37,451 bases of DNA from an uncultured Alphaproteobacteria bacterium (lineage in GTDB: Bacteria; Pseudomonadota; Alphaproteobacteria; Caulobacterales; Parvularculaceae), in the NCBI GenBank assembly GCA_902826095.1, contig CADEDN010000034.1, positions 1 to 37,451 of the forward strand, in the 5' to 3' direction. The notes under the pieces are model-generated. The model was not told where the DNA came from and made no database searches. It was given only the letters and a program-made list of their open reading frames with translations. The translations under genes were made by a program, and so were the position numbers. Shown one piece after another: positions 20,665 to 37,086 of the stretch (position 1 is its first letter; each line of letters starts with the position of its first letter).

Positions 20665-20818
20665 CGGCGTCGCCTTCATCCTTCAGCGGAATTTCGCTGG
20701 CTTCCTTGAATTTCCGGCTGTTCGACGGCGCGAGCGCGTAAGCGAGCGTTAGCGCGAAAGCGAGGACGAACAGGACCAGGCCCCAGGTCTGGGCGAATTT
20801 TGCGAGCGCTTCGTACAT
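20651..20818 (-). CDS. fixQ: FixQ/CcoQ, small subunit of cbb3 oxidase
   Basis: This 55-aa protein, MYEALAKFAQTWGLVLFVLA then FALTLAYALAPSNSRKF, has one membrane helix followed by the family-typical N-x-KF segment and an acidic tail. CcoQ stabilises CcoP in the complex and protects the oxidase under oxygen. It starts 2 bp after the fixO stop and overlaps the fixP start by 14 bp. Confidence 0.93.
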   Translation of the reverse strand: MYEALAKFAQTWGLVLFVLAFALTLAYALAPSNSRKFKEASEIPLKDEGDADGEE

Positions 20819-20820
20819 GA

Positions 20821-21549: not shown

Positions 21550-21559
21550 CGCTCGTCTC

Positions 21560-23206: not shown

Positions 23207-23263
23207 AGCCGCCCCTCGCTTTTCTCGTCGCGCCACCTTCTGACGCGGCGGCGGAATCGCGGT

Positions 23264-23277
23264 TTGACTTATGTCAA
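23264..23277. promoter_or_regulatory. FixK/FNR-type box 1, upstream of fixN
   Basis: TTGACTTATGTCAA is a perfect 5-bp inverted repeat with a 4-bp centre. It ends 57 bp before the fixN ATG, the distance expected of a class II FNR/FixK-activated promoter (box near -41). Confidence 0.88.
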
Positions 23278-23369
23278 AAAGCGCCATGCATTATCGATGC
23301 GCCTCGTTCGCCGCAGCCCTCAAACCGCGCGAGATGAATAGGGCGAGGCCGCCCCCCGAAATCGCCGGG

Positions 23370-24008: not shown

Positions 24009-24033
24009 CAAACAATCGTCCTTACTGCCCCCG

Positions 24034-25512
24034 TTACGCCGGCAGGTTGACCTGGAACACCGCGCCCTGCGGATTGTTGTCCAGAATGAGAATTTCGCCT
24101 TGATGCGCGTCAACAATCGACCGCGTGATCGCTAGGCCGACGCCGAGGCCTTCCGGCTTATCCGTTTGAAATGGTTCGAAGATTTTCGACTTCATGCCGC
24201 CGGCGATTCCGCAGCCCGTGTCAGCCACCGAGATTTCGACCCGTCCGGTCCGCCGCGCCGTCGAAATGGTCAGCCGTTTTTCCGGCGAATCTTTCATCGC
24301 ATCGACGGCGTTCCTGATGAGATTTGTCATCACCTGCTGGATCTGGAGCCGATCGATATTCGCGGCGCCGACATCCTCGCCCAGCCGGAATTCGACTTTG
24401 ACGGCGCCCTCGACGCCGATCAGCGCGATCGCGCTGGCGTCTTCGATGATCTTGTTGATGTCGTGAAGACTCTTCGCGGTTTTGCGCTTTTTCGCAAACT
24501 CGCGCATCTGGTGAATGATTTCGCTGGCGCGCTTTATTTCGCTGACGGCCTCGTCGATCAGCGCCCCCGCTTCCCCCGCGGCGGCGATTGCGGATTTCCG
24601 CACGATGAGCGAGGCGGCGCCGGCGAGGCTGGCCGCCGCGGTCAGCGGCTGGTTGATTTCATGAGCGATCGACGTCGCCATCTCGCCGAGCGCCCCGAGG
24701 CGGGCGGCGTGCTGCAATTGCGCCTGCGTTTCAGCGAGGTGTTGATCAGTCACTTCCTGACTCGTGATGTCTTCGGCGAAGCCGACAAACACCCGCTTGC
24801 CGTCGACGAACTCGCGGATGGTGAGCAAAATCGGAAAAATCTCGCCGTTCTTGCGCAGCGCCCTAATTTTTCGCGGCTGTCCGATGATCCGCCGCTCGCC
24901 TGTCTCCAGATAGCGCCGGATATATAGGTCATGCAGCGAATGATCAGGCTCCGGCATCAGACAATTGACGTTCGCGCCGATCATTTCGGCTTCGCTATAG
25001 CCGAATGTCTCCGTCGCCGCCCGACTGAAGCTCATGATGCGGCCCTCCGCATCGATTGTGATGACGGCGACGGGGCAGGCGTCGATCGTCGCGCGCCGGA
25101 ACGCCTCGCTTTCAGCAAGCGCGATCTCGGTTTCCTTGCGCTTGGTGAAGTCGTGACTGAACATCAAGAGGCCGCCGATCGAGCCTTGCGGCGTGCGCCA
25201 GGGCTTCACTTCCCAGCGCAACCAGTGGCGCCGCCCGTCGCTGCGAACGAACTCGTCCTCGTTCGCGCTGATGGTCTCGCCGCCGAGCGCACGGCGATTT
25301 ATTTCGCGCCAACGCTCCGGAACTTCCGGAAAGACCTCGTAATGCGATTTGCCATGGATATCAGCGCCGTCGAGACCATAATCTTCCAGCCAGCGACGGC
25401 TGACGCTCAGATACCGCATTTGCGCATCGACGATCGCGAGCGCGCAGGGCGCCTCCTCGACGAACTGATGAAGCCCAAGATCGAACTGGACGGCCATTCG
25501 CTCACAATACAC
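24034..25512 (-). CDS. fixL: FixL, heme-PAS oxygen-sensing histidine kinase
   Basis: This 492-aa soluble kinase has no membrane segment. PAS 1 covers about residues 15-125. PAS 2 (about 135-250) is the heme domain: LMPEPDHSLHDLYIRRY places the proximal heme-ligand His at 194, and Arg214 in GQPRKIRALR corresponds to the oxygen-sensing Arg known from rhizobial FixL. The kinase core shows the phospho-acceptor His284 in SIAHEINQPLTA, NLIRNAVDAM, DTGCGIA and GLGVGLA. Bound O2 switches the kinase off; low O2 releases it to phosphorylate FixJ. The start is GTG 25512; ATG 25497 would remove five residues. Confidence 0.95.
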   Translation of the reverse strand: MYCERMAVQFDLGLHQFVEEAPCALAIVDAQMRYLSVSRRWLEDYGLDGADIHGKSHYEVFPEVPERWREINRRALGGETISANEDEFVRSDGRRHWLRWEVKPWRTPQGSIGGLLMFSHDFTKRKETEIALAESEAFRRATIDACPVAVITIDAEGRIMSFSRAATETFGYSEAEMIGANVNCLMPEPDHSLHDLYIRRYLETGERRIIGQPRKIRALRKNGEIFPILLTIREFVDGKRVFVGFAEDITSQEVTDQHLAETQAQLQHAARLGALGEMATSIAHEINQPLTAAASLAGAASLIVRKSAIAAAGEAGALIDEAVSEIKRASEIIHQMREFAKKRKTAKSLHDINKIIEDASAIALIGVEGAVKVEFRLGEDVGAANIDRLQIQQVMTNLIRNAVDAMKDSPEKRLTISTARRTGRVEISVADTGCGIAGGMKSKIFEPFQTDKPEGLGVGLAITRSIVDAHQGEILILDNNPQGAVFQVNLPA

Positions 25513-25553
25513 GCTGATCGCGCGCGCCGCATCCCCGCGGAAGGGCGGCGCGC

Positions 25554-25668
25554 TAAGTAAAATCGCGTAGGCCTCGAACCGCTTTCACGCGCTTCGGCGA
25601 TGAAATGCCGCCGCGACGGGCCAACCAGGCATCGCCCAACGCCGCCGACAATTGCGTCTTTAAGTAAA
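25554..25668. promoter_or_regulatory. Two TAAGTAAA sites in the fixL-fixK intergenic region
   Basis: TAAGTAAA occurs at 25554-25561 and again at 25661-25668, between divergent fixL and fixK. The second is about 80 bp before the fixK ATG. Rhizobial FixJ sites contain a similar TAAGTA/TACGTA core, so these are candidate FixJ sites. The match is short and AT-rich motifs stand out in GC-rich DNA, so this remains a guess. Confidence 0.35.
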
Positions 25669-25746
25669 GGCGCCAAGTCGCATTCGCCGCTATCGACGCC
25701 CATGTTCGCAACGCGATCAGTTTCGACCTTCATTCATCGGGAGAAC

Positions 25747-26436
25747 ATGATGCCAGCCGCTGTCGAACACCTCACGACCAGCCCCTTCAATTCGGAAAGC
25801 GCCAAGAGCGCCGGCGCCGAATTGTCCAGACTTTCGAGCGCGGCCGTTGTTCGACGCCTCACGCCCGGCGAGACTCTGGTCGCCGAAGGAGAAAATGCGC
25901 GATATTGCTATCAGATCCTCAGCGGCGTCGTAAAAGAATACAATACGCTGGAGGACGGCGTCCGCCAGATCACCGATTTCTACGGCGCGGGCGAGTATGT
26001 CGGCTTCGCCGGCGCGGCCGAGCAGCGCCAGACCGTCGAGGCGGTGACGGAGTGTTCTGTCCGCTGCATTTCCCGCGACGCGCTCGCGCGGGCGGTCGCG
26101 ACATCGACGCAAATGTCGGGCGCGCTGATTGATCTTCTTCTCAATCGCCTTGATCGCGCGCAGGAACGCATCATCGCAATCGCGCGCAAAACCGCCGGGC
26201 AGCGGGTCGCCGCATTCCTTGTCAGAATGCTGGAGGAACAGGGGCGGTCAGATTTCGCCGCCCTGCCAATGAGCCGCCAGGACATCGCGGATCATCTTGG
26301 CCTCACCATCGAAACAGTGTGCCGCTCTTTCACGGATTTCAAGGAAGAGGGCGTCATTTCAATGCCGACGTTCCGGCGCATCGTCATTGAGGATCTCTCC
26401 GCTCTATTCGCCGCGGCGGGCGAGCGGGCGCATTAG
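25747..26436 (+). CDS. fixK: FixK-type CRP/FNR family transcription factor
   Basis: This 229-aa regulator has a cyclic-nucleotide-binding-like β-roll (about residues 25-140, LTPGETLVAEGENARYCYQI), a long dimerisation helix (LLLNRLDRAQERIIAIARKT) and a winged HTH with MSRQDIADHLGLTIETVCRS. The recognition helix keeps Glu and Arg at the positions that read TTGA half-sites in FNR/FixK. The N-terminal cysteines that hold the FNR Fe-S cluster are missing, so it should not sense oxygen itself and probably depends on FixLJ. The start is ATG 25747 or 25750 after GGGAG. Eight matching boxes lie within 11 kb. Confidence 0.92.
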   Translation: MMPAAVEHLTTSPFNSESAKSAGAELSRLSSAAVVRRLTPGETLVAEGENARYCYQILSGVVKEYNTLEDGVRQITDFYGAGEYVGFAGAAEQRQTVEAVTECSVRCISRDALARAVATSTQMSGALIDLLLNRLDRAQERIIAIARKTAGQRVAAFLVRMLEEQGRSDFAALPMSRQDIADHLGLTIETVCRSFTDFKEEGVISMPTFRRIVIEDLSALFAAAGERAH

Positions 26437-26625: not shown

Positions 26626-27120
26626 TTACGCCGTCTTGATCTCGATCTTCCGCTCGCTTTCCCTGGCGGCCGTCGATTTCGGCAGCCTGACGGTGAGGAC
26701 GCCGTTCTGGAAGCGCGCGTCGATTTTGTCCTGGTCGACTTCGCAGGGCAGCGGGATCGACCGGCTGAACGCGCCATAGGAGCGTTCGGCCCTGTAATAA
26801 TTTTTCTTCTTTTCCTCGCTCTCGTGGCGCCGTTCGCCCCGAATCATCAAATTGCCGTTGCGAAGCGTGACGCTGATGTCCTTTTGGTCGATGCCTGGAA
26901 GGTCGGCGTTGACCTCGACGGAATCATCCGTTTCGCCGACATCGACAGAGGCGAAGAGACCTTGTCGCAGCTCGGACTCCTTCGCTGTCGCCGCTTCCGG
27001 CAGGAATTCATCGAACAGCCGGTCGATCTCTTCGTGCATGCGTTCGAACGGACCGGCGACGGCGGACGTTAGGCTCGGTCGGCGGCGCAATCGAAACGGG
27101 TTGAGCGCTGGCAAGTCCAT
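26626..27120 (-). CDS. Hsp20/α-crystallin small heat-shock protein (copy A)
   Basis: This 164-aa holdase chaperone has an N-terminal arm with FERMHEEIDRLFDEFLPEAA. The α-crystallin domain (about residues 57-155) contains VEVNADLPGIDQKDISVTL, the YRAERSYGAFSRSIPLP strand and GVLTVRLPK. The start at 27120 has AAGGAG just upstream. FixK-type box 2 ends 66 bp before it, so induction at low oxygen is likely. It is the first gene downstream of fixK, convergent to it. A second, diverged copy lies at 31447. Confidence 0.94.
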   Translation of the reverse strand: MDLPALNPFRLRRRPSLTSAVAGPFERMHEEIDRLFDEFLPEAATAKESELRQGLFASVDVGETDDSVEVNADLPGIDQKDISVTLRNGNLMIRGERRHESEEKKKNYYRAERSYGAFSRSIPLPCEVDQDKIDARFQNGVLTVRLPKSTAARESERKIEIKTA

Positions 27121-27186
27121 GACGGGCTCCTTTCGTTGAGAGGGCTTCCATGCCTTGAAGATTTTCACAACCAGCGAGACGGCGCT

Positions 27187-27200
27187 TTGACATCGGTCAA
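27187..27200. promoter_or_regulatory. FixK/FNR-type box 2, between hsp20 A and the phasin gene
   Basis: TTGACATCGGTCAA, with flanking T and A extending the symmetry to 6 bp per arm. It is 66 bp from the hsp20 ATG and 129 bp from the divergent phasin ATG. The hsp20 distance fits direct activation; the phasin could share it. Confidence 0.85.
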
Positions 27201-27329
27201 ACGATGTTTCCGCCGGCGCGGCGCTTTCCGGCCGCGGTCGCGCCGCTGTTGATCTGCATCATATCGCTGCGATCGTTTTCCGGCGATTTTCCCGCCCTGC
27301 AAAAGTTGTGAGCAATGGAGAATGCATCG

Positions 27330-27722
27330 ATGTCTGGAAACGGCATGGAGAAGTCTGAGAAGGCGGTATTCAGCTCTGACGACGGAGCCGCCCGCGAGCA
27401 TCAATTTTTCCCCTTGTTCGATCCGGGAGAGTTGACGAAACTTGGCAATCGGAACTTTGAAGTCATGTCGCGCGCCGCGCGCGCCTATTTCAACGGCGCG
27501 ACGGAAATGAACAGGCATTTCGCTGAATTCATGAATCAGCGGATGAAGAAGGACTTCGAGTCCGCGCGCGCCTTCATGGCGTCAAAAAACAGCGAGGACG
27601 CCTTCAACACACAGGCGGAATTTGTCGAAAGCGCCTTCCGCGACTACGCGGAGGAGACGACAAAAGTCTTCAACCTCGCGGCCGATCTTGCGCGAGAGGC
27701 GCTAAAGCCGGCCGAGCACTGA
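27330..27722 (+). CDS. Phasin-family granule-associated protein
   Basis: This 130-aa helical, amphipathic protein lacks cysteine and has the phasin-type core LGNRNFEVMSRAARAYFNGATEMNRHFAEFMNQRM, continued by FVESAFRDYAEETTKVFNLA. Phasins coat polyhydroxyalkanoate granules and control their size. Convergent phaC is next to it, which supports the call. The start at 27330 follows GGAG by 9 nt; ATG 27315 is an alternative. Confidence 0.85.
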   Translation: MSGNGMEKSEKAVFSSDDGAAREHQFFPLFDPGELTKLGNRNFEVMSRAARAYFNGATEMNRHFAEFMNQRMKKDFESARAFMASKNSEDAFNTQAEFVESAFRDYAEETTKVFNLAADLAREALKPAEH

Positions 27723-27747
27723 AGACGCCGGCTCTCCCGCGAACCGC

Positions 27748-29679
27748 CTACGGCGCAAAGACATAGGTCCCGGGCGCCGGCGGCAGGGATTTTGACAGCT
27801 TCTTGCGATCTTGCGGCCCGGCGCCGACCCAATGCGGCGTCGGCGCCGCGCCGCCCTCGCTTGAGCGCTGGGAGAGCCACGCTTCCCAGACCGGCCACCA
27901 GGGTCCGTCGGTTTTTTCCGTGTGCGCGACCCAAAGCGAAGGGTCGAGGAAGAAATCCTCGGCGGCGGAGACATTCACTTGATATTGCTGCTGCGGATGG
28001 CCCGGTTCGCTGACAATTCCGGCGTTGTGCCCGCCAGCCGCGAGCAAAAACGTGACCTCCGTGTCGGTCAACATGTGAATCTTGAAGACGGACCGCCAGG
28101 GCGCGACATGGTCGCGCGTCGTTGCGACCGCGAAAACCGGGATCCTGACGTCGGACAGCGCGACAATTTCGCCCGTGACGTCAAATCGTCCTTCGGCGAA
28201 ATCATTGTTGAGATAAAGCCGCCGCAGATATTCCGAGTGCATTTTATACGGAAGGCGCGTCGCGTCGGCGTTCCAGGCCATGAGGTCGGTCATCGGCCGG
28301 CGCTCGCCCATCAGATAATCATGTTCCAGTTTCGACCAGATGAGGTCGTTTGAGCGAAGCAGCTGAAATGCGCCCGCCATCTGCTTCGTGTCGAGAAATC
28401 CCTGCTCCCACATGACGTCTTCGAGAAACGTGATCTGGCTTTCATTGATGAAGAGCCCGAGTTCGCCCGGCTCGGAAAAATCAAATTGCGCGGCGAGAAA
28501 GGTCAAGGTCTTGAAGCGATCATCCCTGGCGCGCGCCATCGCCGCCGCCGCCACGCCGAGCAACGTGCCGCCAAGGCAATACCCGACGCCGTGGACGCGC
28601 GCCTTGGGGGAGATCGCCTCGATGGCGTCGAGCGCCGCCATCACGCCCTGCGACCGATAGTCGTCAAAACCGACATCCCGGTCTTCGGGGTCGGGATTTT
28701 TCCAGGAGATCATGAACACCGTATGGCCGCTGTCGACGAGGAATTTCACCAGCGAATTTTGCGGCGAGAGATCGAGAATGTAATATTTCATGATCCAGGC
28801 CGGCACGATCAGGATCGGCTCGGCCTTCACCGTCCGCGTCGACGGCGCGTATTGGATGACCTCCATCAGAGCGTTGCGAAACACGACCGACCCGGGCGTG
28901 ATCGCGACGGTTTCGCCGGGCTTATAAGCCTCCGCGCCGACGGGCGGCCTCCCGGCGGTCGCGCGCTCGGCGTCTTCGAGAAAATTCCTCCATCCGCGCA
29001 GGAGATTGGCGCCTTGCTCCTCAGCCGTCTTTTTCAGGACTTCCGGATTGGTGAGAATGAAATTCGAGGGGGAGACGACATCGAGTATTTGCCGCGATAC
29101 GAATTCGACGACGCGTTCATGTTGCGGCGTCACGCCCCTGACGCTGGTCGTCGCATTGTGCCACCATTGCTGCGTCAGCAAAAAACTCTGGGAGATGAGA
29201 TTGAACGGCCAGGCGCGCCAGGACTCATCGGAAAATCGCCGGTCCTGCGGCAGCGGAGCGATACAACACTCATCAGAGGCCGCAAATCCGCATCGCATCG
29301 CGTAATTTTGAAATCGTATCGCCTTTCGCGCCGCCTTTTGCGCCAGCTGCGCCGGTTTTCCGACGGAGAACGCAAGATGCGTCATCCAGTCGAAATAGGA
29401 CGCGGCGAGCGCGCCGGGGGAAACGCCCGCCGTCATCCGGCCGACAGACGCATGCCAGGCGCGGTCCATGATCTCGACAATCGCGGTCGACGCAAATGAA
29501 TCGCGCGACCATTGCTGGCGGGCCGAGTCCGACAACGACGCCTGTATCGGCCTTGGCGAACGCCGCGCGCCTTGCGGCGGCTCGCCGGCCGCAAGTCTCG
29601 GCAGGATCGAACTGACGGGAGCCTCTCCAGCTTCCGCCGCAGACGGCGTCTGGATCGCTGTTTTTCCTTGTTGTGGCAT
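27748..29679 (-). CDS. phaC: Poly(3-hydroxyalkanoate) synthase
   Basis: This 643-aa synthase has an N-terminal PhaC_N region with SYFDWMTHLAFSVGKPAQLA and WWHNATTSVRGVTPQHE, and an α/β-hydrolase core. The nucleophile Cys (about residue 368) lies in the lipase-like box GVGYCLGGT. The Asp (TTRDHVAPW) and His (AGGHNAGIV) of the Cys-Asp-His triad are present. It polymerises hydroxyacyl-CoA into storage granules, an electron sink when respiration is limited. I put the start at 29679 (MPQQGKT): the ATG at 29739 overlaps a FixK-type box, and AAAGGG lies before 29679. Confidence 0.94.
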   Translation of the reverse strand: MPQQGKTAIQTPSAAEAGEAPVSSILPRLAAGEPPQGARRSPRPIQASLSDSARQQWSRDSFASTAIVEIMDRAWHASVGRMTAGVSPGALAASYFDWMTHLAFSVGKPAQLAQKAARKAIRFQNYAMRCGFAASDECCIAPLPQDRRFSDESWRAWPFNLISQSFLLTQQWWHNATTSVRGVTPQHERVVEFVSRQILDVVSPSNFILTNPEVLKKTAEEQGANLLRGWRNFLEDAERATAGRPPVGAEAYKPGETVAITPGSVVFRNALMEVIQYAPSTRTVKAEPILIVPAWIMKYYILDLSPQNSLVKFLVDSGHTVFMISWKNPDPEDRDVGFDDYRSQGVMAALDAIEAISPKARVHGVGYCLGGTLLGVAAAAMARARDDRFKTLTFLAAQFDFSEPGELGLFINESQITFLEDVMWEQGFLDTKQMAGAFQLLRSNDLIWSKLEHDYLMGERRPMTDLMAWNADATRLPYKMHSEYLRRLYLNNDFAEGRFDVTGEIVALSDVRIPVFAVATTRDHVAPWRSVFKIHMLTDTEVTFLLAAGGHNAGIVSEPGHPQQQYQVNVSAAEDFFLDPSLWVAHTEKTDGPWWPVWEAWLSQRSSEGGAAPTPHWVGAGPQDRKKLSKSLPPAPGTYVFAP

Positions 29680-29730
29680 CCGCTGACCCTTTCGCCATAC
29701 GGGAAGTCGCATTGCTGTCGCATCCCGGCA

Positions 29731-29744
29731 TTGACCCACGTCAA
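29731..29744. promoter_or_regulatory. FixK/FNR-type box 3, between phaC and the SDH-family protease gene
   Basis: TTGACCCACGTCAA. It ends 51 bp before the phaC start chosen here and 85 bp before the divergent protease ATG. The phaC distance is typical of an activated promoter; both genes could be served. Confidence 0.85.
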
Positions 29745-29829
29745 GCGTTGCGGGCCCCGTCGCCTCTATTTCGCGGGGCGCGGCGGAGATCCGAGGCGGG
29801 AGCGCCGCGAGCGCATTGAAGGGAGCCGT

Positions 29830-30657
29830 ATGGATTTCAGCGCGCTGCTCATCCTTTATTTCATCCTGATTTCGCTGCAGCCTCTCGTTCAGCAGCGAGC
29901 GCTCGAAATCATGCGGCGCCGAAAGATCTCCGCGATCGAGCGTGAGCGGGGGTCACGAGTCATTCTGCTTGTTCACCGGCAGGAGACCATGCGCCTGCTC
30001 GGATTCCCGATTTTCCAGTTCATCAACATGAACGACACGGAGGAGATCATTCACGCCATCAGGATGACCGATCCTGATTTGCCGTTGGATATCATTCTTC
30101 ACACCCCGGGGGGCGTCGCTCTCGCCGCCCTCCAGATCGCCCGCGCCTTGCGGGATCATCGGGGACGCACGACCGCATTCGTCCCGCACTACGCGATGTC
30201 CGGCGGCACGCTGATCGCGCTCGCCGCCGACGAGATCGTGCTCGGCCCGCACGCCGTTCTCGGGCCGATCGACCCGCAGATCGACGGCATGCCTGCGGCG
30301 GCGATCATCGAGGCGGTCTCGCGCAAACCCGTGGCGGAAGTCGACGATGAAACCCTCATTCTCGAAAGCATCAGCCGAAAAGCGATCGCCCAATTGCAGG
30401 CGGCGATCGTCAGTCTCGTCTCGGAGGAGCTCAGCCTCGAACGCAGGCGCGAGATTGCGGTCAGATTGACGAGCGGATCCTGGACGCATGATTACGGCAT
30501 CACGCCGCAAGAGGCCAGAGAGATCGGCTTTCGGGTCGGCGTCGATCTGCCGCCGCTGATTTACGACTTGATGCGCCTCTACCCGCAGCCGCTCAGACGG
30601 ACGCCGAGCGTCGAGTACCTTCCTTTCCGGCACGAAAGAGAGACAAAGCCCAAGTGA
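29830..30657 (+). CDS. SDH-family membrane serine protease (ClpP/SppA-like fold)
   Basis: This 275-aa protein has an N-terminal membrane helix (ALLILYFILISLQPLVQQ) followed by a ClpP/crotonase-like domain. LDIILHTPGGVALAALQIAR and FVPHYAMSGGTLIALAADEI contain the candidate nucleophile Ser in MSGG, and VLGPHAVLGPIDPQIDG follows. This is the pattern of the SDH_sah (serine dehydrogenase proteinase) family, related to signal peptide peptidase A. GGGAG lies 5 nt before the ATG at 29830. Substrates are unknown; a role in membrane-protein quality control under low oxygen is an inference from context. Confidence 0.88.
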   Translation: MDFSALLILYFILISLQPLVQQRALEIMRRRKISAIERERGSRVILLVHRQETMRLLGFPIFQFINMNDTEEIIHAIRMTDPDLPLDIILHTPGGVALAALQIARALRDHRGRTTAFVPHYAMSGGTLIALAADEIVLGPHAVLGPIDPQIDGMPAAAIIEAVSRKPVAEVDDETLILESISRKAIAQLQAAIVSLVSEELSLERRREIAVRLTSGSWTHDYGITPQEAREIGFRVGVDLPPLIYDLMRLYPQPLRRTPSVEYLPFRHERETKPK

Positions 30658-30774
30658 CGGCAAGGCGAGAACAAATTTAGGGTCGATCGATGGCGAAGCC
30701 GCTTTTCGCAGCCGGCGCTTTCTCCGGCGGCGGAATGCGGAAAGGCCCGGCGCTCCGGCGGTCGCCGATCTTCT

Positions 30775-30788
30775 TTGATCACCGTCAA
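30775..30788. promoter_or_regulatory. FixK/FNR-type box 4, upstream of the CBS-pair gene
   Basis: TTGATCACCGTCAA, with one mismatch in symmetry at the fifth position. It lies 132 bp before the CBS-domain ATG, longer than at the other genes, so a long leader or an intermediate promoter is implied. Confidence 0.75.
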
Positions 30789-30920
30789 TGCGGGCGCCGT
30801 CGATGAATGATTCACTTTCCAAGAGGCAAGCGAGCGCCTTGTTGGAAATCGGCGAGGTTTTGTTCCGCCTTTTTCGCGCGCCGCGCTGGGCGGAAAACGG
30901 TCGACACATTGGAGAGCGAT

Positions 30921-31337
30921 ATGAAAGTCCGGGAAGCAATGCACAAAGGCGTTCAGACAAGAGAGCCGTCAACCTCAATCGCGCAAATAGCGGCGCTGAT
31001 GAAGGCGGACGACATCGGCGCTGTGCCGATCGTCGAGAAGGGACAATTCCTCGGAATGGTCACCGACAGGGACATCGCCGTACGCGCGGTCGCCGGCGGA
31101 CGCGATCCGAACAGCGCCGTGGCGCGGGAGATCATGTCGACCGGGCTGACCTGCTGCAAGGAAGACGATTCCGTCGCTGACGCCGTCCACCTCATGGAGA
31201 AGAAAGCGATTCGTCGATTGCCGGTCACCAATGCAAGCAACGAACTCGTCGGAATGCTGAGCCTCGGCGACATATCCAACGCTGCGGGAAAAAACATTTC
31301 CAGCGAACTGGTGAGGGCGGTGACGGCTCACCATTGA
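30921..31337 (+). CDS. CBS-pair domain protein
   Basis: This 138-aa protein is made only of two CBS repeats. The first is about residues 6-60, with IAQIAALMKADDIGAVPIV and LGMVTDRDIAVRAVAGG. The second is about 68-125, with DAVHLMEKKAIRRLPVTNAS and LVGMLSLGDIS. Such stand-alone pairs bind adenine nucleotides or NAD and act as energy sensors. GGAG lies 8 nt before the ATG at 30921. It has the architecture of mycobacterial Hrp1, a dormancy protein. Ligand and partner are not evident. Confidence 0.92.
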   Translation: MKVREAMHKGVQTREPSTSIAQIAALMKADDIGAVPIVEKGQFLGMVTDRDIAVRAVAGGRDPNSAVAREIMSTGLTCCKEDDSVADAVHLMEKKAIRRLPVTNASNELVGMLSLGDISNAAGKNISSELVRAVTAHH

Positions 31338-31381
31338 ATGACGCGGCCTGCGAGCCCGGTCTCGATTTCGGGCGCGCGCAT

Positions 31382-31395
31382 TTGACCGGAGTCAA
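31382..31395. promoter_or_regulatory. FixK/FNR-type box 5, upstream of hsp20 B
   Basis: TTGACCGGAGTCAA, flanked by T and A and so symmetric over 6 bp per arm. It ends 51 bp before the hsp20 B start, the same distance as phaC. Confidence 0.87.
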
Positions 31396-31446
31396 ATGAG
31401 CGGTCGCCAAAGCATTTAGACGATGGATGCAAACAGGGAGAAATCT

Positions 31447-31923
31447 ATGAGCAAGGCGATGATCAAGACCACCGCTCGCGACGGCCGCGGATTGCTGGAA
31501 CCGCTCGACGCCGCCTATGAAGACATGGAGCGCTTTTTCAACGATCGACTGCGGCGGCTGCAACTGCCGCATTGGGGCGTCGGCGAAGGCCGCAATTTCG
31601 CCAGCCTCGACATCGGCGAGGTCGGCGACGAAATCGTCGTCGAACTCGACGCTCCCGGCGTGAAGCGTGAAGACATCGATATCTCGCTGTTCGACAACGC
31701 GCTTCGCATCAAGGGCAAACGCGAATTTCGCAAGGAGGAGAAAAACAAAACGCATCACCGCGTTGAGCGCGAATATGGGGAATTCGACCGGCGCGTCGCC
31801 CTCCCCTGCGAAGTGGACGCCGATCGCGTCCACGCCGCATTGAGGGACGGCGTGCTGACGATCAAATTGCCGAAGTCGGCGCGCGCCAAGGAGAACGAGC
31901 GAAAAATTGAAGTCCATACTTGA
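31447..31923 (+). CDS. Hsp20/α-crystallin small heat-shock protein (copy B)
   Basis: The protein has 158 aa. The N-terminal arm (AYEDMERFFNDRLRRLQL) and α-crystallin domain (VVELDAPGVKREDIDISL, HHRVEREYGEFDRRVALPCE and DGVLTIKLPK) are complete. It shares the AFSR/FDRR-LPCEVD strand with copy A but differs elsewhere, so it is an old paralogue rather than a recent duplication. The start at 31447 follows AGGGAG by 8 nt; the ATG at 31423 has no such site. Confidence 0.94.
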   Translation: MSKAMIKTTARDGRGLLEPLDAAYEDMERFFNDRLRRLQLPHWGVGEGRNFASLDIGEVGDEIVVELDAPGVKREDIDISLFDNALRIKGKREFRKEEKNKTHHRVEREYGEFDRRVALPCEVDADRVHAALRDGVLTIKLPKSARAKENERKIEVHT

Positions 31924-31970
31924 CTTGACCGATCCCCGCCCTTCGCGAAAGGCCCCCGCGAAGGCGACGT

Positions 31971-32011
31971 CTGGGCGGCCTTTGTTCTCCCCGAAGAACA
32001 AGGCCGCCCAG
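31971..32011 (+). terminator. Strong hairpin after hsp20 B
   Basis: The left arm at 31971-31988 and right arm at 31995-32011 pair over 17 bp with a single bulged T and the loop CCCCGA. Only three Ts follow shortly after, so it may stabilise the hsp20 mRNA or attenuate read-through into the next gene rather than act as a classic terminator. Confidence 0.6.
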
Positions 32012-32079
32012 CCTGTTTCGCTGGAAATCGCCGAACGTTCTGCGCGTGAAGCAAACTGGCGCAAATCGCCCGCGCGCAG

Positions 32080-33048
32080 GTGTTGAAGAAGGCTCGCCTG
32101 TTCGCGCTCGGGGCCAGCCGGCCGCTTGGCGAAAAGTCGGCTGCGCTCCTCGGATCGGCCTTGAGCGCTCACGAAGAACGAAGGTTTGAAGACGGCGAGC
32201 ACAAATTCAGACCGATTGATCCTGTCCGCGGCGCCGACGTATTCGTCATTCACAGTCTCTTTGCAGACGCAGCCGCAACGGCGAACGACAAGCTCTGTGA
32301 GCTGCTTTTCTTTCTCGGCGCGGTTCGCGACGCCGGCGCGGCGCGAGTGTCGGCGATCGCTCCCTATCTCGCATACGGCCGCAAAGACCGCCGCACCAAT
32401 CCGCAAGATCCCTTGACGGCGCGCTATGTCGCGCAGCTTCTTGAAGCCATGGTGATTGACGCCGTCGTCACAATCGACGCGCACAATCTCAGCGCATTTG
32501 AAAACGCCTTCCGTCGGCCGGTCCTTCATCTTGAAGCGCGCGTGCAGATGGCTGAGCGTCTTGCGCCCAGGCTCGGCGCCGCGCCCGTCGTTGTCGCGTC
32601 GCCTGATCCCGGCGGCGTCAAGCGCGCCCAATTGTTTCGCGAGACGCTTGAGAAAACGCTTGGTCGACCCGTCGAATTCGCCTTGCTGGAAAAGCGTCGG
32701 GCCGGCGGCGTCGTCAGCGGCGATTTGATGGCGGGGAATGTCGGCGGCGCGGATGTCTTGATCGTCGACGATCTAATCAGCACGGGCGGAACCATGGCGC
32801 GCGCCGCCCGCGCCTTTCGGGGGGCCGGCGCCAACCGCGTCTTTTCTGTCGCCACGCATGGCCTGTTCGTCGGCGATGCTTGCGCCGCGCTGGCGGATTC
32901 CGCCATTGAAAAAACATTCATCACCGACACGATCGCGCCCTATCGCCTCACTGACGCCGTCATCAAGGACCGCCTCGAAATCGTCAGCGCGGCGCCGCTG
33001 ATCGCCGGCGCGATTCGCGCGCTTTGTTGTGATGAACAGTGTCGTTGA
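32080..33048 (+). CDS. Ribose-phosphate pyrophosphokinase (PRPP synthetase) paralogue
   Basis: The 322-aa protein has the two phosphoribosyltransferase-fold halves of the Prs family. YLAYGRKDRRTNPQDPLTAR corresponds to the ATP-binding flexible-loop region, VVTIDAHN to the metal-binding histidine segment, and VLIVDDLISTGGTMARAA to the PRPP-binding loop. It makes PRPP from ribose-5-phosphate and ATP. It starts at GTG 32080 (or TTG 32083). It diverges from typical housekeeping Prs in the first half, so it is probably a second copy specialised to this stress island. A phosphoribosyltransferase lies 3.3 kb downstream. Confidence 0.88.
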   Translation: MLKKARLFALGASRPLGEKSAALLGSALSAHEERRFEDGEHKFRPIDPVRGADVFVIHSLFADAAATANDKLCELLFFLGAVRDAGAARVSAIAPYLAYGRKDRRTNPQDPLTARYVAQLLEAMVIDAVVTIDAHNLSAFENAFRRPVLHLEARVQMAERLAPRLGAAPVVVASPDPGGVKRAQLFRETLEKTLGRPVEFALLEKRRAGGVVSGDLMAGNVGGADVLIVDDLISTGGTMARAARAFRGAGANRVFSVATHGLFVGDACAALADSAIEKTFITDTIAPYRLTDAVIKDRLEIVSAAPLIAGAIRALCCDEQCR

Positions 33049-33053
33049 ACTTT

Positions 33054-34109
33054 CTACGCCTGAAGCCTGATCGCGGCGGGCGCCGCCGCCTTGGCATAGG
33101 CGCGCGCCTTTGCAACCCATCGTCCTGTCTGCCCGCGGCGCTCATCCGCGATGTGCCCGAGCGCCAGACGCGCTCTGACTGCGGCTCGGTAGGCCGCGTA
33201 AAAATCAAGCAATCGCTGACTGGGGCGCGACGCCGCCCGCTTCGCATAATGTGCGATCAGATCGGTCCCGATCTTCGCGGCTCCTAGCAGCCGGCATTCC
33301 AAGGCGAGATAGCTCAGCTCATCGAACGGGTCGACCAGTCGAAGCTCTCGGCTGAACTCCAGGCAATCGATGATCGCGGGCGGGCGCGTCAAGCAAATGT
33401 GCTCGGGCCTCAAATCGCCGTGGCCTTCGATAATGCGACGGCTTTCGAGCGGCTCCAACAACCATTGAGGCTTTGAGTCAATCACGCGCGTCACCGGATC
33501 CGCAAGGAGCGCCAACTCCGCGGCCGACTGCTCGCCGCGACATCGCGCAAATATTTCCCGGTTTTCCTGTTGTTGTGCCGCCAGGATCGACAGATATCGA
33601 TCCTCGTCCATGTCGACCGGCGGCGCTTTAGAGAAAAACTCGAACAGGAGATCGAGGGCGGGCTCAATGTCGATGAATGAGAAGTCTGCCCCGACGATCG
33701 CCCGGTCAAGCATCAGCGCCGGCGGCAGGCGGCGCATTTCGACAAGCCATTCGACAGGAATCCCTTCGCCGTTCAGCGAGAGAGCGCCGTCCGTACGCCG
33801 GGTCACCGGGACGACCCGAACATAGACCGACGCCGCGAGGCGCTTGTTCAAACGCAGTTCCTCGCGACAAAAATGCTCACGACGAGCGAGCGTTGCATAG
33901 TCGAGAAACGACGCGGTGACGCTTTTCTTGAATTTGTAGACCCGGCGCGGCGTCAGGAAGACCCAGGACATATGGGTCTCTTTCGCTTCGACGACGCCGC
34001 TCTCAAGACCATAAGTCGAGGGCTGCGACAGATACGCGACAAGCTCGGATGTCGACGCTGATCTCAGTTCCGCCTCAGTTCGGTCAGCGGCGTCGCCGTC
34101 TTCGGCCAT
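33054..34109 (-). CDS. COG2187-type kinase-like (aminoglycoside phosphotransferase-fold) protein
   Basis: This 351-aa protein shows an N-terminal lobe with ETHMSWVFLTPRRVYKFKKS and the catalytic-loop-like GHGDLRPEHICL, followed by AIIDCLEFSRELRLVDPFDE (metal-binding region). These are hallmarks of COG2187. Many COG2187 proteins are bifunctional, with a C-terminal P-loop ATPase. That second half is missing: the frame ends in an Ala-rich tail at 33054. The substrate is unknown. ATG 34109 (MAEDGDAAD) is used; no clear ribosome-binding site is visible. It is convergent with the PRPP synthetase gene. A mycobacterial relative, Rv2004c, is a dormancy-regulon gene. Confidence 0.85.
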   Translation of the reverse strand: MAEDGDAADRTEAELRSASTSELVAYLSQPSTYGLESGVVEAKETHMSWVFLTPRRVYKFKKSVTASFLDYATLARREHFCREELRLNKRLAASVYVRVVPVTRRTDGALSLNGEGIPVEWLVEMRRLPPALMLDRAIVGADFSFIDIEPALDLLFEFFSKAPPVDMDEDRYLSILAAQQQENREIFARCRGEQSAAELALLADPVTRVIDSKPQWLLEPLESRRIIEGHGDLRPEHICLTRPPAIIDCLEFSRELRLVDPFDELSYLALECRLLGAAKIGTDLIAHYAKRAASRPSQRLLDFYAAYRAAVRARLALGHIADERRGQTGRWVAKARAYAKAAAPAAIRLQA

Positions 34110-34213
34110 TGTCGCCAATCGATGAAAACGCCTGACACACCGGCCGGCGCCGGCATGCGCAAGAGTGAGAGAACCGCGGCGCCTTCCACAGATTGTCGAT
34201 TATCCGCAAAGGC

Positions 34214-34240
34214 GCCGGGAGGTCATACCGACCTCCCGGC
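34214..34240 (-). terminator. Perfect 11-bp hairpin downstream of the BON gene
   Basis: GCCGGGAGGTC and GACCTCCCGGC pair perfectly around a 5-nt loop. It lies 60 bp after the BON stop in the minus direction, followed by GCCTTTGC rather than a real T-run. It could serve as a bidirectional roadblock between the BON and kinase-like genes. A second inverted repeat, TCATGAAGTC (34241-34250) with GACTTCATGA (34297-34306), overlaps the BON stop codon. Confidence 0.55.
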
Positions 34241-34300
34241 TCATGAAGTCGGATCAATGCGGAACGGGCAACGCGGACACGCCCGCCGCTCGCCGAGACT

Positions 34301-34951
34301 TCATGAAATCCGAAGATTGTCGACGACCTCGGTGACGCCGGGCGCCGCCCAAACCGCGTCTTCAACGATCTTGCGCTCATACCAGGCTTTGACATCGCCT
34401 TTCAGCGTGACCCGCCCGCCGTCGACATTGACTTTCACATGCGACGCTTCGATATCGGCGTTCCGGTGCAGCGCGCGCGTGATCGCGCGCGTGACGTCCG
34501 TCGGGAGGACGCGGGCCTTGACGTTGATCAGATTGGAGACCGCCGAAACGCCTTTGACGCCCGCGACCAGATTCTTGGCGAGATCGCGCTGGTAATTCCA
34601 GTCGACCGAGCCCGTTAGCGTGACGTACCCCGTACGAACCTCCGCCTTGATTTCATTTTCCGCGAGGCTGCTGTTCCATTTGTAGAGACTTGCGATGCGT
34701 TCGGCGATCTGTTCATCGTCCACGGTCGTATCTGAGCGAAGCTTCACCCTTATTTCTTCCGCAATCGCCCGTACGCCTTTGACGCGCCGCGCTGCGTCTT
34801 CGGCTGCGATTTTTTCCGCATAGCTCGACACTGTGCCGGTTAGAGTGACGGCGCCGTCTTTGACAGTCACGCCGATATCGGTCGATTCAACGCGCGGCTC
34901 CCAGTCAATCTCGGCGAGAATGTCGTCACGGATTTCCTGATCGGTTCTCAT
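34301..34951 (-). CDS. Triple-BON-domain protein
   Basis: This 216-aa protein has no signal peptide and carries three BON domains (about residues 1-70, 75-145 and 148-216). Each has the pattern of a strand, a Gly-x-V-TL-G turn and a helix: DGAVTLTGTVSSY, TGYVTLTGSVDWNY and GGRVTLKGDVKAWYER. BON domains bind membranes or ligands; OsmY-like proteins are stress-induced but periplasmic, whereas this one should stay in the cytoplasm. The start at 34951 follows GAGGAG. FixK-type box 6 lies 59 bp upstream. It is divergent from the hibernation-factor fusion. Confidence 0.92.
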   Translation of the reverse strand: MRTDQEIRDDILAEIDWEPRVESTDIGVTVKDGAVTLTGTVSSYAEKIAAEDAARRVKGVRAIAEEIRVKLRSDTTVDDEQIAERIASLYKWNSSLAENEIKAEVRTGYVTLTGSVDWNYQRDLAKNLVAGVKGVSAVSNLINVKARVLPTDVTRAITRALHRNADIEASHVKVNVDGGRVTLKGDVKAWYERKIVEDAVWAAPGVTEVVDNLRIS

Positions 34952-35010
34952 TTGAGGCTCCTCTAAAGCTGCGATCGACGCAATGATCGCGTGCGCCGAA
35001 GAGCCCCGCA

Positions 35011-35024
35011 TTGACGAACGTCAA
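35011..35024. promoter_or_regulatory. FixK/FNR-type box 6, between BON and hibernation-factor genes
   Basis: TTGACGAACGTCAA. It lies 59 bp from the BON ATG and 67 bp from the hibernation-factor ATG, so this one site is well placed to activate both directions. Confidence 0.86.
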
Positions 35025-35041
35025 AGCCGTTCGCCGCGTCG

Positions 35042-35055
35042 TTGATCGATATCAA
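35042..35055. promoter_or_regulatory. FixK/FNR-type box 7, perfect FNR consensus
   Basis: TTGATCGATATCAA matches the E. coli FNR consensus TTGAT-N4-ATCAA exactly. It lies only 36 bp before the hibernation-factor ATG, so binding here would either give a nearly leaderless transcript or overlap a promoter fired from box 6. Confidence 0.85.
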
Positions 35056-35091
35056 GCTCAGCGCGCGGCAAGGCCGCTACAAGCGCCGACA

Positions 35092-35640
35092 ATGGAAACA
35101 GAACCGCATATTTCGTTCGAGAATATCCCGGCCTCAGCGGCCGTGCGCGACCGGGTTCAGCGCGAAGTCGACAGGCTGGAGCGGTTTTTCGGCCGCATCA
35201 CCGCTTGCCGCGTCATTGTGCGCCGGCCGCAGGCGCGCCGGCGGCATGGCGATCTCTACGCAGCTTCAGTTCACCTGACCCTTCCCGGCGGGCGAGAGGT
35301 CCACGCGGATCGCAATCCGCCGGACGATCACGCGCATGAAGACGCACTTGTGGCGATTCGCGACGTGTTCGCCGCCGCAAGGCGCAAGCTGCAGGACGAC
35401 GTCAGGGTAATGAGGGGCGACACGAAACTTCATGCCGATCAGAATATCGCCGTCGTTCGATCGCTAGTCGCTGAAGACAATTACGGCTTCCTCGAGACCG
35501 ACGACGGGCGCGAAATCTACTTCCACCGCAATTGCGTCGCGAATTCCGGGTTTGACGATCTCCGCGTCGGAAACCGCGTCGTCTATTCGGAAGAGGCTGG
35601 CGAAAAAGGCGCGCAGGCGACCTTCGTCAGACAGCTTTAG
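35092..35640 (+). CDS. Ribosome hibernation factor (HPF/RaiA) fused to a cold-shock domain
   Basis: In this 182-aa protein, residues 1-105 match the S30AE/HPF fold: ISFENIPASAAVRDRVQREV, then RLERFFGRITACRVIVRRPQ, and a helix with HEDALVAIRDVFAAARRKLQ. Residues about 115-182 form a cold-shock/OB domain with DNYGFLETDDGREIYFHRN, carrying both RNA-binding aromatic motifs. HPF binds in the mRNA/tRNA channel of the 30S subunit and silences ribosomes. The usual C-terminal dimerisation domain of long HPF is replaced by the RNA-binding domain. There is no good ribosome-binding site before ATG 35092. Boxes 6 and 7 imply low-oxygen control. Confidence 0.9.
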   Translation: METEPHISFENIPASAAVRDRVQREVDRLERFFGRITACRVIVRRPQARRRHGDLYAASVHLTLPGGREVHADRNPPDDHAHEDALVAIRDVFAAARRKLQDDVRVMRGDTKLHADQNIAVVRSLVAEDNYGFLETDDGREIYFHRNCVANSGFDDLRVGNRVVYSEEAGEKGAQATFVRQL

Positions 35641-35654
35641 AAAGGCTGAAATCC

Positions 35655-36086
35655 ATGAGCGAAACGACCGATTATCAGCTTCAGCTGTCGATCAGCCCCG
35701 AAAAAGCGTTCTACATACTCGTAAAGGCGCGCGAATTCGAAGAAAAAACCGAGACGGCGGACATGGAGGAAGGCTCCAACGCCGCCGACGACCGCGCGGT
35801 CGCAATCCTTGAGGACAATCCGGAGGATGCGACCGAAGAGGAATTGCGCGCAGCGCTCGATTCGCTGAATGAGGACGAGCAGCTCGACATGATGGCGCTC
35901 ACATGGATCGGCCGCGGCGACTTCTCCATTGAGGATTGGGATGCGGCGCGCGAGGAAGCGCGGGCGATGTCCGACCGGCACATCTCGTCATATCTGGCGG
36001 GCGACCCGCTCTTCAGCGATTACCTGGAAGAGGGGCTTTCGCTGGCTGGTTTCAATCTCGATGAATTCGAGCGAAAACATTTCTGA
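35655..36086 (+). CDS. DUF3775 family protein
   Basis: This 143-aa acidic protein begins TDYQLQLSISPEKAFYILVK and continues with VKAREFEEKTETAD. The middle is acidic, then LNEDEQLDMMALTWIGRGDF and ISSYLAGDPLFSDYLEEGLS follow, which fit DUF3775. Function is unknown. There are no membrane segments and no cysteine. It starts 14 bp after the hibernation-factor stop, so it is co-transcribed and probably belongs to the same response; a helper or inhibitor role is speculation. Confidence 0.85.
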   Translation: MSETTDYQLQLSISPEKAFYILVKAREFEEKTETADMEEGSNAADDRAVAILEDNPEDATEEELRAALDSLNEDEQLDMMALTWIGRGDFSIEDWDAAREEARAMSDRHISSYLAGDPLFSDYLEEGLSLAGFNLDEFERKHF

Positions 36087-36099
36087 AAACCTCATTCAG

Positions 36100-36113
36100 T
36101 TGACGAAGGTCAA
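36100..36113. promoter_or_regulatory. FixK/FNR-type box 8
   Basis: TTGACGAAGGTCAA. It lies just after the DUF3775 stop and 104 bp before a 46-codon frame that precedes the phosphoribosyltransferase gene, so the last two genes of the island can form a separate unit. Confidence 0.83.
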
Positions 36114-36217
36114 CGAAAGCGCGCTCGCGATAAGCCAGAATGGATATGCTGCAGAGGTGAGCCGACCTGGCGAAGCCAAACTGAGAAATGTCCGAAAGAT
36201 ATGGATCAGGAGTCGCG

Positions 36218-36358
36218 ATGAATCAGGAAGGCGTTGACCCGATGCGACGGAGCCCGGGGTCGTTCGGCGAAAGCGCGCAAAAGGGAGACCTTAGCGTGGA
36301 GCGCCGCCGCCCCGGGCTTACCATATTCGGCCGCGGCGGTCCGTCGGCGTCGCCTTAA
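36218..36358 (+). CDS. Possible 46-aa basic small protein
   Basis: The frame starts MNQEGVDPMRRSPGSFGESA and ends GRGGPSASP. AGGAG lies 5 nt before its ATG, one of the best ribosome-binding sites in the region, and it ends 11 bp before the next gene. It is Arg/Gly/Pro-rich and probably disordered. No family is recognised. It may be a real small protein or a leader peptide for the phosphoribosyltransferase gene. Confidence 0.5.
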   Translation: MNQEGVDPMRRSPGSFGESAQKGDLSVERRRPGLTIFGRGGPSASP

Positions 36359-36369
36359 GATCTGAATTC

Positions 36370-37086
36370 ATGTCGCGGCATATGTTCGAGGACCGTCACG
36401 CAGCCGGAAAAGCCCTCGCCGGGCGGTTGCGAGATTATTCGAAGCCGGCGCCGATCGTCTTTGCGCTCCCGCGCGGCGGGATTCCGGTTGCAGCGGCGGT
36501 CGCGGAAGCGCTGGACGCCCCGCTTGACGTCATCCTCGTTCGCAAGCTCGGGGCGCCCGGTCACGACGAGCTCGCGATCGGGGCGATCGTCGACGGCGGC
36601 TCGCCGACAATTGTGCTTTACAAGGATGCTGTCGATGAGACGGGCGCGAGCGAGGGGTTCATTGAGGCGGCGAAGTCGGCGGCGCTAAGCGAAATTGAGC
36701 GACGGCGGCGGATTTTTCTCGGCGATGCGAGCCCCGCGTCGCCGGCCGGCCGGAACATTATCATCATCGATGACGGCTTGGCGACCGGCGCCACGATGGA
36801 GGCGGCGATCGACGCGATGCGCAAAGTCGGCGCCAGCCACATCACCGTCGCCGTTCCGGTCGCGCCAGCGGAAGCGGCGGCGCGCTTCCGGCGCCTCGCT
36901 GATGATTTCATTTGCCTGGAGACGCCTTCGATGTTCTGGGCGGTCGGCCAGCAATATCGAAATTTTCGCCAGCTGACGGACGCCGATGTCGTCGCCATAC
37001 TCAAGGACGCCGCCAGACGCACAAGCCGGCGCGGCGACTCGACGCAAGTCGCCAACGGTTCAGCTTCGCCTTCAGATCGCACTTGA
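36370..37086 (+). CDS. Phosphoribosyltransferase-domain protein
   Basis: In this 238-aa protein, the type I PRT fold is visible: IVFALPRGGIPVAAAVAEAL, the PPi loop region VILVRKLGAPGHDELAIGAI, and the PRPP-binding loop NIIIIDDGLATGATMEAA. This subtype (FALPRGG, then RKLG-P-ELAIGA) is found alone or fused to erythromycin-esterase-like or hydrolase domains in stress islands, including mycobacterial Rv0571c and Rv2030c. The base it uses is unknown. The C-terminal ~25 residues are a polar tail that ends at the polX remnant, and may be extended by that junction. Confidence 0.9.
   Translation: MSRHMFEDRHAAGKALAGRLRDYSKPAPIVFALPRGGIPVAAAVAEALDAPLDVILVRKLGAPGHDELAIGAIVDGGSPTIVLYKDAVDETGASEGFIEAAKSAALSEIERRRRIFLGDASPASPAGRNIIIIDDGLATGATMEAAIDAMRKVGASHITVAVPVAPAEAAARFRRLADDFICLETPSMFWAVGQQYRNFRQLTDADVVAILKDAARRTSRRGDSTQVANGSASPSDRT

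Follow-up and report, generated by a model that had tools for sequence, protein, structure and literature searches.

A FixLJ-FixK system adjoins an island of stress and PRPP-related genes

The DNA examined in this study (hereafter the window, 37,451 nucleotides) is the whole of contig C34 (CADEDN010000034.1) from an uncultured alphaproteobacterium of the family Parvularculaceae, whose genome of 3.79 Mb is assembled in 58 contigs. Positions 26626 to 37086 of the window hold an island of genes that lies beside an oxygen-sensing FixLJ-FixK system and a cbb3 oxidase operon. An earlier note had proposed that two Hsp20 chaperones, a protein with paired CBS domains (CBS pair), a COG2187 kinase-like protein, an HPF-domain protein and a phosphoribosyltransferase (PRT) lie here under FixK-type boxes and downstream of the heme-PAS kinase FixL, and that this portable set parallels the mycobacterial DosR dormancy regulon under an unrelated regulator. 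Domain and profile matches place every one of these genes in the island.

The region from 15575 to 26436 is occupied by the cbb3 oxidase genes, some of whose subunits were named by eye, and by the genes for FixJ, FixL and FixK. FixO and FixN are encoded on the minus strand (20821..23287; PF02433, 321 bits; PF00115, 397 bits). The rest of the fix cluster (15575-20679) includes a FixI-type P-type ATPase (PF00122) as well as FixH-like, FixG-like and FixP-like proteins that were read by eye from the translations. The response regulator FixJ (23370..24116, minus strand) is composed of a receiver and a GerE/LuxR domain, and the sensor kinase FixL (24034..25512, minus strand) carries two PAS domains, the second of heme type, followed by HisKA and HATPase domains. 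This second PAS domain can be aligned to the solved heme PAS domains of FixL, and both the ‘HDxYI’ His and the ‘IIGxxR’ Arg are conserved in it; we take these to be the heme ligand and the pocket Arg, respectively.

FixK (25600..26436, plus strand; likely start ATG 25747 or 25750) is a CRP/FNR-type activator whose best match in the PDB is FixK2 (4i2o, E 2.2e-32). Its frame has cysteines at positions 3, 103, 152, 156 and 241 and lacks the N-terminal four-cysteine cluster of FNR. Thus, a FixL with the heme-PAS His and Arg, a FixJ with receiver and LuxR-type domains and a FixK without the FNR cluster are all present. The cysteine at residue 241 is part of the DNA-binding helix (ETVCR). It is shared by five FixK proteins from the same bacterial family, but is replaced by Ser in the solved FixK2 (ETVSR). 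At the position of the redox-active Cys183 of FixK2, the window protein has Ser. Judging from these alignments, the helix cysteine may be a redox switch that has moved.

The island opens with the first Hsp20 gene on the minus strand (26626..27168, ATG 27120; PF00011, E 8.5e-27), a phasin gene on the plus strand (27315..27722; PF09361, 58.3 bits) and the gene for the polyhydroxyalkanoate (PHA) synthase PhaC on the minus strand (27748..29739, ATG 29679; PF07167, 198 bits). Next on the plus strand come an SDH-type Clp-fold serine proteinase (29830..30657; PF01972, 337 bits; NF047768 over cut-off), the CBS-pair protein (30921..31337, wider range 30807-31337; E 4.8e-26), for which Rv2626c (1y5h) is the second-best PDB match, the second Hsp20 copy (31423..31923; PF00011, E 3.2e-27) and a phosphoribosyl pyrophosphate (PRPP) synthetase, or ribose-phosphate diphosphokinase (32080..33048; TIGR01251, 233 bits with a cut-off of 113; PRPP motif kept). 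This last enzyme is a second copy, 37% identical to the one encoded on contig C13 of the same genome. The minus strand then carries the COG2187-type gene (33054..34118) and a gene for a protein with three BON domains (34301..35011, ATG 34951; PF04972, 161.7 bits). The remaining genes, on the plus strand, encode an HPF protein fused to a cold-shock domain (HPF-CSD; 35092..35640, wider range 35011-35640; PF02482, 43.8 bits with a cut-off of 23.7; PF00313), a DUF3775 protein (35655..36086; PF12616) and the PRT (36370..37086; PF00156, 67.2 bits; PRPP motif kept), which we take to be COG1926-like. The best PDB match of the HPF-CSD protein is a ribosome hibernation promoting factor (9t0z, E 3.4e-28) that spans both domains. 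No universal stress protein (USP) was found between 26626 and 37086.

FixK boxes are concentrated in the window

We searched for exact matches to the FixK/FNR pattern TTGAYN4RTCAA. Nine are found in the window, compared with 0.09 expected from shuffled sequences, and the entire genome holds 34, compared with two for a reversed-pattern control. The window represents 1% of the genome and carries 9 of its 34 boxes, with seven of these inside the island, in keeping with the boxes that had been proposed for it.

The spacing of the boxes relative to the genes is as follows. A box (TTGACATCGGTCAA, 27187..27200) is centred 74 bp before the start codon of the first Hsp20 copy, and a near-match with one mismatch (27249..27262) lies 74 bp before the phasin gene. 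The divergent genes for PhaC and the SDH protease share a box (29731..29744) centred 58 bp and 92 bp from their respective starts, and further boxes are centred 140 bp before the CBS-pair gene (30775..30788), 58 bp before the second Hsp20 copy (31382..31395) and 264 bp before the PRT gene (36100..36113). Two boxes (35011-35024 and 35042-35055) lie between the BON and HPF-CSD genes, at distances of 66 and 98 bp from the former and 74 and 44 bp from the latter. Outside the island, a box at 24100 is located within the end of fixL and may serve fixJ. The other, at 23264, is 16 bp inside the longest fixN frame, and therefore fixN probably starts further in. A search for the DosR-type box (GGGACTNNAGTCCC) with up to two mismatches yielded no match in the window, with 0.87 expected.

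A short COG2187 protein is encoded tail-to-tail with a PRPP synthetase

For the COG2187-type protein (354 amino acids, with motifs HGDLRPEH and IDCLEF), the best Pfam match was not significant (E 0.24), and NCBIfam yielded none. Its profile was aligned with that of long COG2187-type proteins from nine relatives (hhalign probability 100%, E 2.9e-57), covering columns 11-330 of the 526-column long form, and the C-terminal P-loop half of that form is missing from the window protein. Thus, the families that the earlier note had assigned hold, with two corrections: the COG2187 protein is of a short form that lacks the P-loop half, and the HPF protein is a cold-shock fusion.

An AlphaFold model of the short protein (pLDDT 90.2) is matched by Foldseek to aminoglycoside, choline, methylthioribose and maltose kinases (probability 1.00, TM about 0.4-0.5), and the protein is accordingly predicted to have the aminoglycoside/choline/methylthioribose kinase (APH) fold. 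This likeness to resistance enzymes does not imply resistance. D235, the catalytic Asp of the HGD loop, and D251 are invariant in 30 of 30 short COG2187 proteins, which also have an invariant His240 where the long form has an invariant Asn.

In the window, the genes for the PRPP synthetase and the COG2187 protein converge, with only 5 bases between their stop codons. The same tail-to-tail arrangement, in which fewer than 400 bp separate the match ends, is seen in 59 of 75 loci from other genomes that carry both genes. A convergent gene pair that is conserved in this manner is unusual. We did not meet this core in the literature searched for the parallel with known systems, which is no proof that it is unpublished.

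Island gene families cluster in other genomes

To define the company kept by these genes, the short COG2187 alignment was used as an anchor to scan genome contigs, and the best-scoring 80 of at least 507 confirmed relatives, which are not a random sample, were examined with up to 10 kb on each side (55 loci longer than 19 kb, 25 shorter). By record titles, 42 of the loci are from alphaproteobacteria, 25 from gammaproteobacteria, eight from betaproteobacteria and five from others. As controls, 40 windows of 20 kb were drawn at random from ten alphaproteobacterial genomes; they overlap in part (776,674 distinct of 800,000 bases) and serve only as a loose control for the gamma- and betaproteobacterial loci. 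Families were counted by tblastn (E 1e-5; one or two queries each), such that the counts are lower bounds, and several queries had been chosen because they recur in these same 80 loci, which favours the loci over the control windows.

Against 0 of 40 controls in every case, the 80 loci carry PRPP synthetase (75), PRT (42), a dienelactone-type hydrolase (35), USP (18), nicotinate PRT (PncB; 15), CapA (15), RtcB (13), archease (13), Hsp20 (12), DUF3775 (12), CBS (11), DUF2267 (11), HPF-CSD (9), P-type (cation) ATPase (9) and FtsH (9). Counting only one locus per genus leaves PRPP synthetase in 54 of 58, PRT in 33, HPF-CSD in seven and Hsp20 in four. Differences were not significant for BON (7 versus 0, p 0.053), FixK (5 versus 0, p 0.13), PpsA (10 versus 2, p 0.17) and GroEL (10 versus 1, p 0.066), and FixL-like kinases are not enriched (11 of 80 versus 6 of 40). 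In 13 of the 80 loci, the RNA ligase RtcB and archease occur together beside the short COG2187 gene.

FixK boxes are also enriched. Across 745 kb of alphaproteobacterial loci there are 116 boxes, present in 30 of the 42 loci, compared with 1 for the reversed control and with 4 boxes in the 800 kb of control windows, and in 19 of these 42 loci a box lies 61-210 bp before the start of the COG2187 match. Betaproteobacterial loci carry 10 boxes in 144 kb (5 of 8 loci), and the others carry 6 in 74 kb. Box control is therefore a strong alphaproteobacterial feature, not a universal one, and it is weaker in gammaproteobacteria.

The HPF-CSD gene offers a second view of the same association. Among 192 genomes drawn across the class, 35 carry it, the present genome included. 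Twenty regions surrounding the gene, out of 40 sites in other genomes, hold few island families (short COG2187 4, PRPP synthetase 4, PRT 3, Hsp20 3, nicotinate PRT 5, USP 1 and CBS 0), and therefore most HPF-CSD genes lie outside such islands. In the same draw, 8 of the 10 other genomes with a short COG2187 protein (E <=1e-55, a threshold set after the results were seen) have HPF-CSD, compared with 34 of 191 overall (hypergeometric 1.6e-5, uncorrected for kinship).

A candidate island for survival at low oxygen

We consider it likely that the island is a FixLJ-FixK-controlled low-oxygen survival island, which is related to the lxa (low-oxygen-activated) locus of Burkholderia and draws on a gene pool shared with the mycobacterial DosR regulon. 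From the observed gene content, the boxes and their spacing, the heme-pocket residues and the co-occurrence relative to controls, together with the predicted kinase fold, we infer how the island is regulated in this organism, its role in survival and the type of kinase substrate, as set out below.

When oxygen falls, heme-bearing FixL would activate FixJ, which would raise the level of FixK. FixK would then switch on the cbb3 oxidase and, via the boxes within the island, the island genes. Hsp20 could protect proteins while the HPF-cold-shock protein parks ribosomes, and PhaC and phasin would store carbon and reductant as PHA. The CBS pair might sense adenylates. The second PRPP synthetase, the PRT and the APH-fold COG2187 kinase, the latter perhaps acting on a ribose-type small molecule, would keep a PRPP-based salvage route open.

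Several observations weigh against this interpretation. In the window, neither the COG2187 gene nor the PRPP synthetase gene is directly preceded by a FixK box, and these genes would have to be read with the BON and second Hsp20 genes, respectively. Boxes are sparse in gammaproteobacteria, with 17 in 450 kb and only 6 of 25 loci carrying any, and the eight loci from Halomonadaceae have none. The most complete locus seen, on an Azospirillum brasilense plasmid, has no box in 25 kb, even with the relaxed pattern TTGAN6TCAA. The short COG2187 gene is not regularly accompanied by PhaC (1 of 80 loci), phasin (0 of 80) or the SDH protease (0 of 80). Finally, B. cenocepacia H111 lacks lxa and is nevertheless reported to survive anoxia (PMC9104464), and therefore such loci are not always needed.

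The same weighing applies to how tightly the families are bound together. Counting the anchor itself, the five families of the earlier note (Hsp20, CBS, COG2187, HPF and PRT) are all present within about 10 kb on either side in none of the 80 loci; four are present in 3 loci, three in 12, two in 41 and one in 24. The predicted clustering goes far beyond chance, but in none of these loci do the five families occur together, and therefore we view the genes as a pool with a tight core and rule out a fixed five-family module.

For this core, we entertain a bolder idea, which we regard as possible without favouring it. The short COG2187 kinase, the tail-to-tail second PRPP synthetase, the PRT and often a nicotinate PRT might form an undescribed metabolic unit of a cross-phylum gene pool for hypoxic quiescence, which would hook onto whichever regulator the host provides, whether FixK, Anr/FNR or a DosR-type protein. 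We find the pairing of COG2187 with PRPP synthetase, and the PRPP-based salvage role that it may imply, to be the most useful new point of this analysis, and the tightness of the pairing provides a biochemical lead for a family of unknown function. Should the gene pool prove portable, studies of harmless soil bacteria that carry FixK islands might reveal the roles of COG2187, the PRT and HPF variants, dormancy proteins that are as yet poorly understood.

Possible exchange of island genes between lineages

In a tree of COG2187 proteins, at least three label changes for alphaproteobacteria are forced by well-supported branches. For example, eight Halomonadaceae rows join two Paracoccaceae rows (support 99/89), and a Rhodoferax metagenome-assembled genome joins one of Filomicrobium (98/87). 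Contamination of metagenome-assembled genomes could explain single cross-class cases. The tree gives no firm placement for the window protein itself. Relatives of the short COG2187 protein are encoded on 16 of 72,556 plasmid records, and a search of viral contigs gave 13 pattern matches with no confirmed relatives. The plasmid copies and between-class branches speak for the proposed portability, whereas the prediction that 14 of the 16 plasmids are non-mobilizable speaks against it. The A. brasilense plasmid locus encodes PhaC, two USPs, COG2187, PRPP synthetase and nicotinate PRT, as well as Hsp20, PRT, PpsA and HPF. A Crp/Fnr regulator and a kinase adjoin this set, which also includes a ‘BCAM0308 family protein’, a name derived from an lxa locus tag.

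The long COG2187 form has its own associations. Among 11 alphaproteobacterial relatives, seven have a USP gene immediately before it, one of these being truncated at the start of its contig. In each of the five genomes of the same family that have a close FixK, CBS and USP genes occur in the same 20 kb, three of them with a long COG2187 gene and two with Hsp20. Long and short COG2187 proteins may therefore occupy equivalent positions.

These arrangements raise the question of whether actinobacterial DosR-type genes and islands such as this one exchange the same operons and owe their likeness to common descent instead of separate assembly of the families, which would be compatible with a FixK-controlled survival island. 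DosR genes have already been said to spread by horizontal transfer (PMC5309233, as excerpted). The long gene follows a USP much as Rv2004c follows Rv2005c, a USP, in the excerpted DosR list (PMC4090907), with strand and order there deduced from the adjacent locus tags, and a Streptomyces plasmid carries a USP-COG2187 pair with Hsp20, nitroreductase, nicotinate PRT and P-type ATPase. However, this is the only one of three actinobacterial plasmids with a USP directly before COG2187. One Rhodococcus plasmid has COG2187 with PfkB, PpsA and CBS and no USP directly before it, and on a second the gene is accompanied by P-type ATPases, a GAF-domain kinase and a response regulator, with a USP further off. 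On an Azospirillum thermophilum plasmid the order is reversed, with the USP following COG2187. Moreover, the window carries the short subfamily, for which there is no actinobacterial record among the 16 plasmid records or the best 80 of at least 507 loci. We therefore hold orthologous transfer of this kind to be rather unlikely.

Genome context and alternative explanations

The last 20 nucleotides of the contig (37432-37451) are a 20-mer that occurs four times in the genome, always no more than one base away from the end of a contig. This is probably the end of an insertion sequence, presumably IS481-like, and the island could therefore extend past the contig. A single USP gene was found in the genome. 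It encodes a tandem-domain protein on contig C6 (4764-5701), where the first domain match begins 67 bp after a FixK box. Continuation of the island at the start of C6 was rejected, as the same set of queries matched only USP and FtsH in the first 16 kb. The window also carries a tmRNA gene that was scored as tmRNA*, which we take to be the permuted form typical of Alphaproteobacteria.

Eight other genomes of the same genus, five of them at least 90% complete, were searched for island genes. None of the eight yielded a match for FixK (E 1e-30) or for COG2187 (E 1e-10), and six yielded none for PRT (E 1e-15). A 4-kb contig (C84) of one same-genus genome carries phasin, SDH protease (76% identical) and PRT genes, and it represents part of a similar island from a sister species.

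One alternative to a survival function is that the genes form a cluster for microoxic growth beside fixLJK, made up of an oxidase, PHA as an electron sink and chaperones. In this case, there would be no role in dormancy, and the likeness to DosR would reflect only common stress families. The island indeed abuts the cbb3 operon, and several such genes of Bradyrhizobium diazoefficiens are reported, in the excerpted text, to be induced in transcript and protein at 0.5% oxygen (PMC6515984), which is a growth condition. However, growth would hardly call for a ribosome-hibernation protein or a second PRPP synthetase, the Burkholderia lxa locus has been linked to anoxic persistence in published work, and the enriched families include RtcB, archease, CapA and nicotinate PRT, each with 0 of 40 in the controls. 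We consider growth alone improbable as an account of the island. Chance landing of unrelated genes beside fixLJK, or debris of a recent insertion, would fit the missing genes in the same-genus genomes and the repeat at the contig end, but it is contradicted by recurrence of the families across genera and by the enrichment of boxes in the window and in alphaproteobacterial loci, and is hardly credible.

Comparison with known systems

The sensor kinase of the DosR system binds heme, and we take CapA and archease to be among the DosR families, as well. In general organization the two systems are similar, with a sensor kinase and a NarL-type response regulator on top, and FixL-FixJ are of this same general type. 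All five families represented in the DosR regulon of Mycobacterium tuberculosis by HspX, Hrp1, RafH (Rv0079), the COG2187 protein Rv2004c and the PRT Rv0571c (PMC5309233, PMC4090907 and PMC1950094, as excerpted) are present in the island, with likeness at the family level only. The published DosR lists, in the parts shown, include RtcB, PRT, CtpF, Hsp20, USP and Hrp1 (PMC5309233, PMC4090907). Rv2004c is described in an excerpt as a COG2187 protein with partial overlap to gluconate kinase (PMC1950094), and it appears to fit the long two-domain form. Thus, the proposed DosR parallel holds for five of five families but not for the COG2187 subfamily, which is short in the window. Likewise, the claim of an unrelated regulator is apt for FixK, the DNA-binding activator of the CRP/FNR type, but not for FixL-FixJ, given that DosR (DevR) is a response regulator of the NarL subfamily (PMC3029386, as excerpted) and FixJ combines a receiver with a GerE/LuxR domain. 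Other differences are the fusion of HPF to a cold-shock domain, a PHA synthase where the DosR list, as excerpted, has a triacylglycerol synthase, the missing USP and the gathering of the genes in one block versus nine for DosR.

FixK control of such genes is documented in Bradyrhizobium. In B. diazoefficiens, hspC2, a USP gene, ppsA, phaC2 and the CBS gene blr6074 have boxes and show strong loss of expression in a fixK2 mutant, and control of hspC2, ppsA and phaC2 is said to be validated by in-vitro transcription (PMC9104804, as excerpted). The likeness extends to boxes before Hsp20 (hspC2), USP and PpsA genes and to the neighbouring phaC2 (bll6073) and CBS (blr6074) genes, although the Bradyrhizobium genes are split over several places (the bll4634-blr4655 and bsr6066-blr6074 blocks), and short COG2187, PRPP synthetase and PRT are not named in the excerpt. 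The predicted core FixK regulon of Alphaproteobacteria includes Hsp20, a CBS protein, a putative kinase, FixL and FixJ; HPF, PRT and PRPP synthetase are not named in the list shown (PMC2908626).

Another close counterpart may be the lxa locus of B. cenocepacia (BCAM0275-BCAM0323), which, in the excerpted paper, has already been compared with DosR, whose regulon holds homologues of lxa genes, and for which FixLJ and FixK are discussed as regulators (PMC6127331). The likeness includes Hsp20, a BON protein, a gene of the polyhydroxybutyrate pathway (phbB) and low-oxygen induction of lxa (PMC6127331). Relative to lxa as known by description, the island contains Hsp20, BON, PhaC, phasin, PRPP synthetase and PRT, with the USP gene elsewhere in the genome after a box, and it differs in having a cbb3 operon beside it together with HPF-CSD, SDH protease and DUF3775 genes. 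By contrast, lxa carries six USPs among about 50 genes. The DosR-type parallel is therefore already in print for Burkholderia, as is the control by FixK for Bradyrhizobium, and the island belongs to a kind of cluster already known from these two genera.

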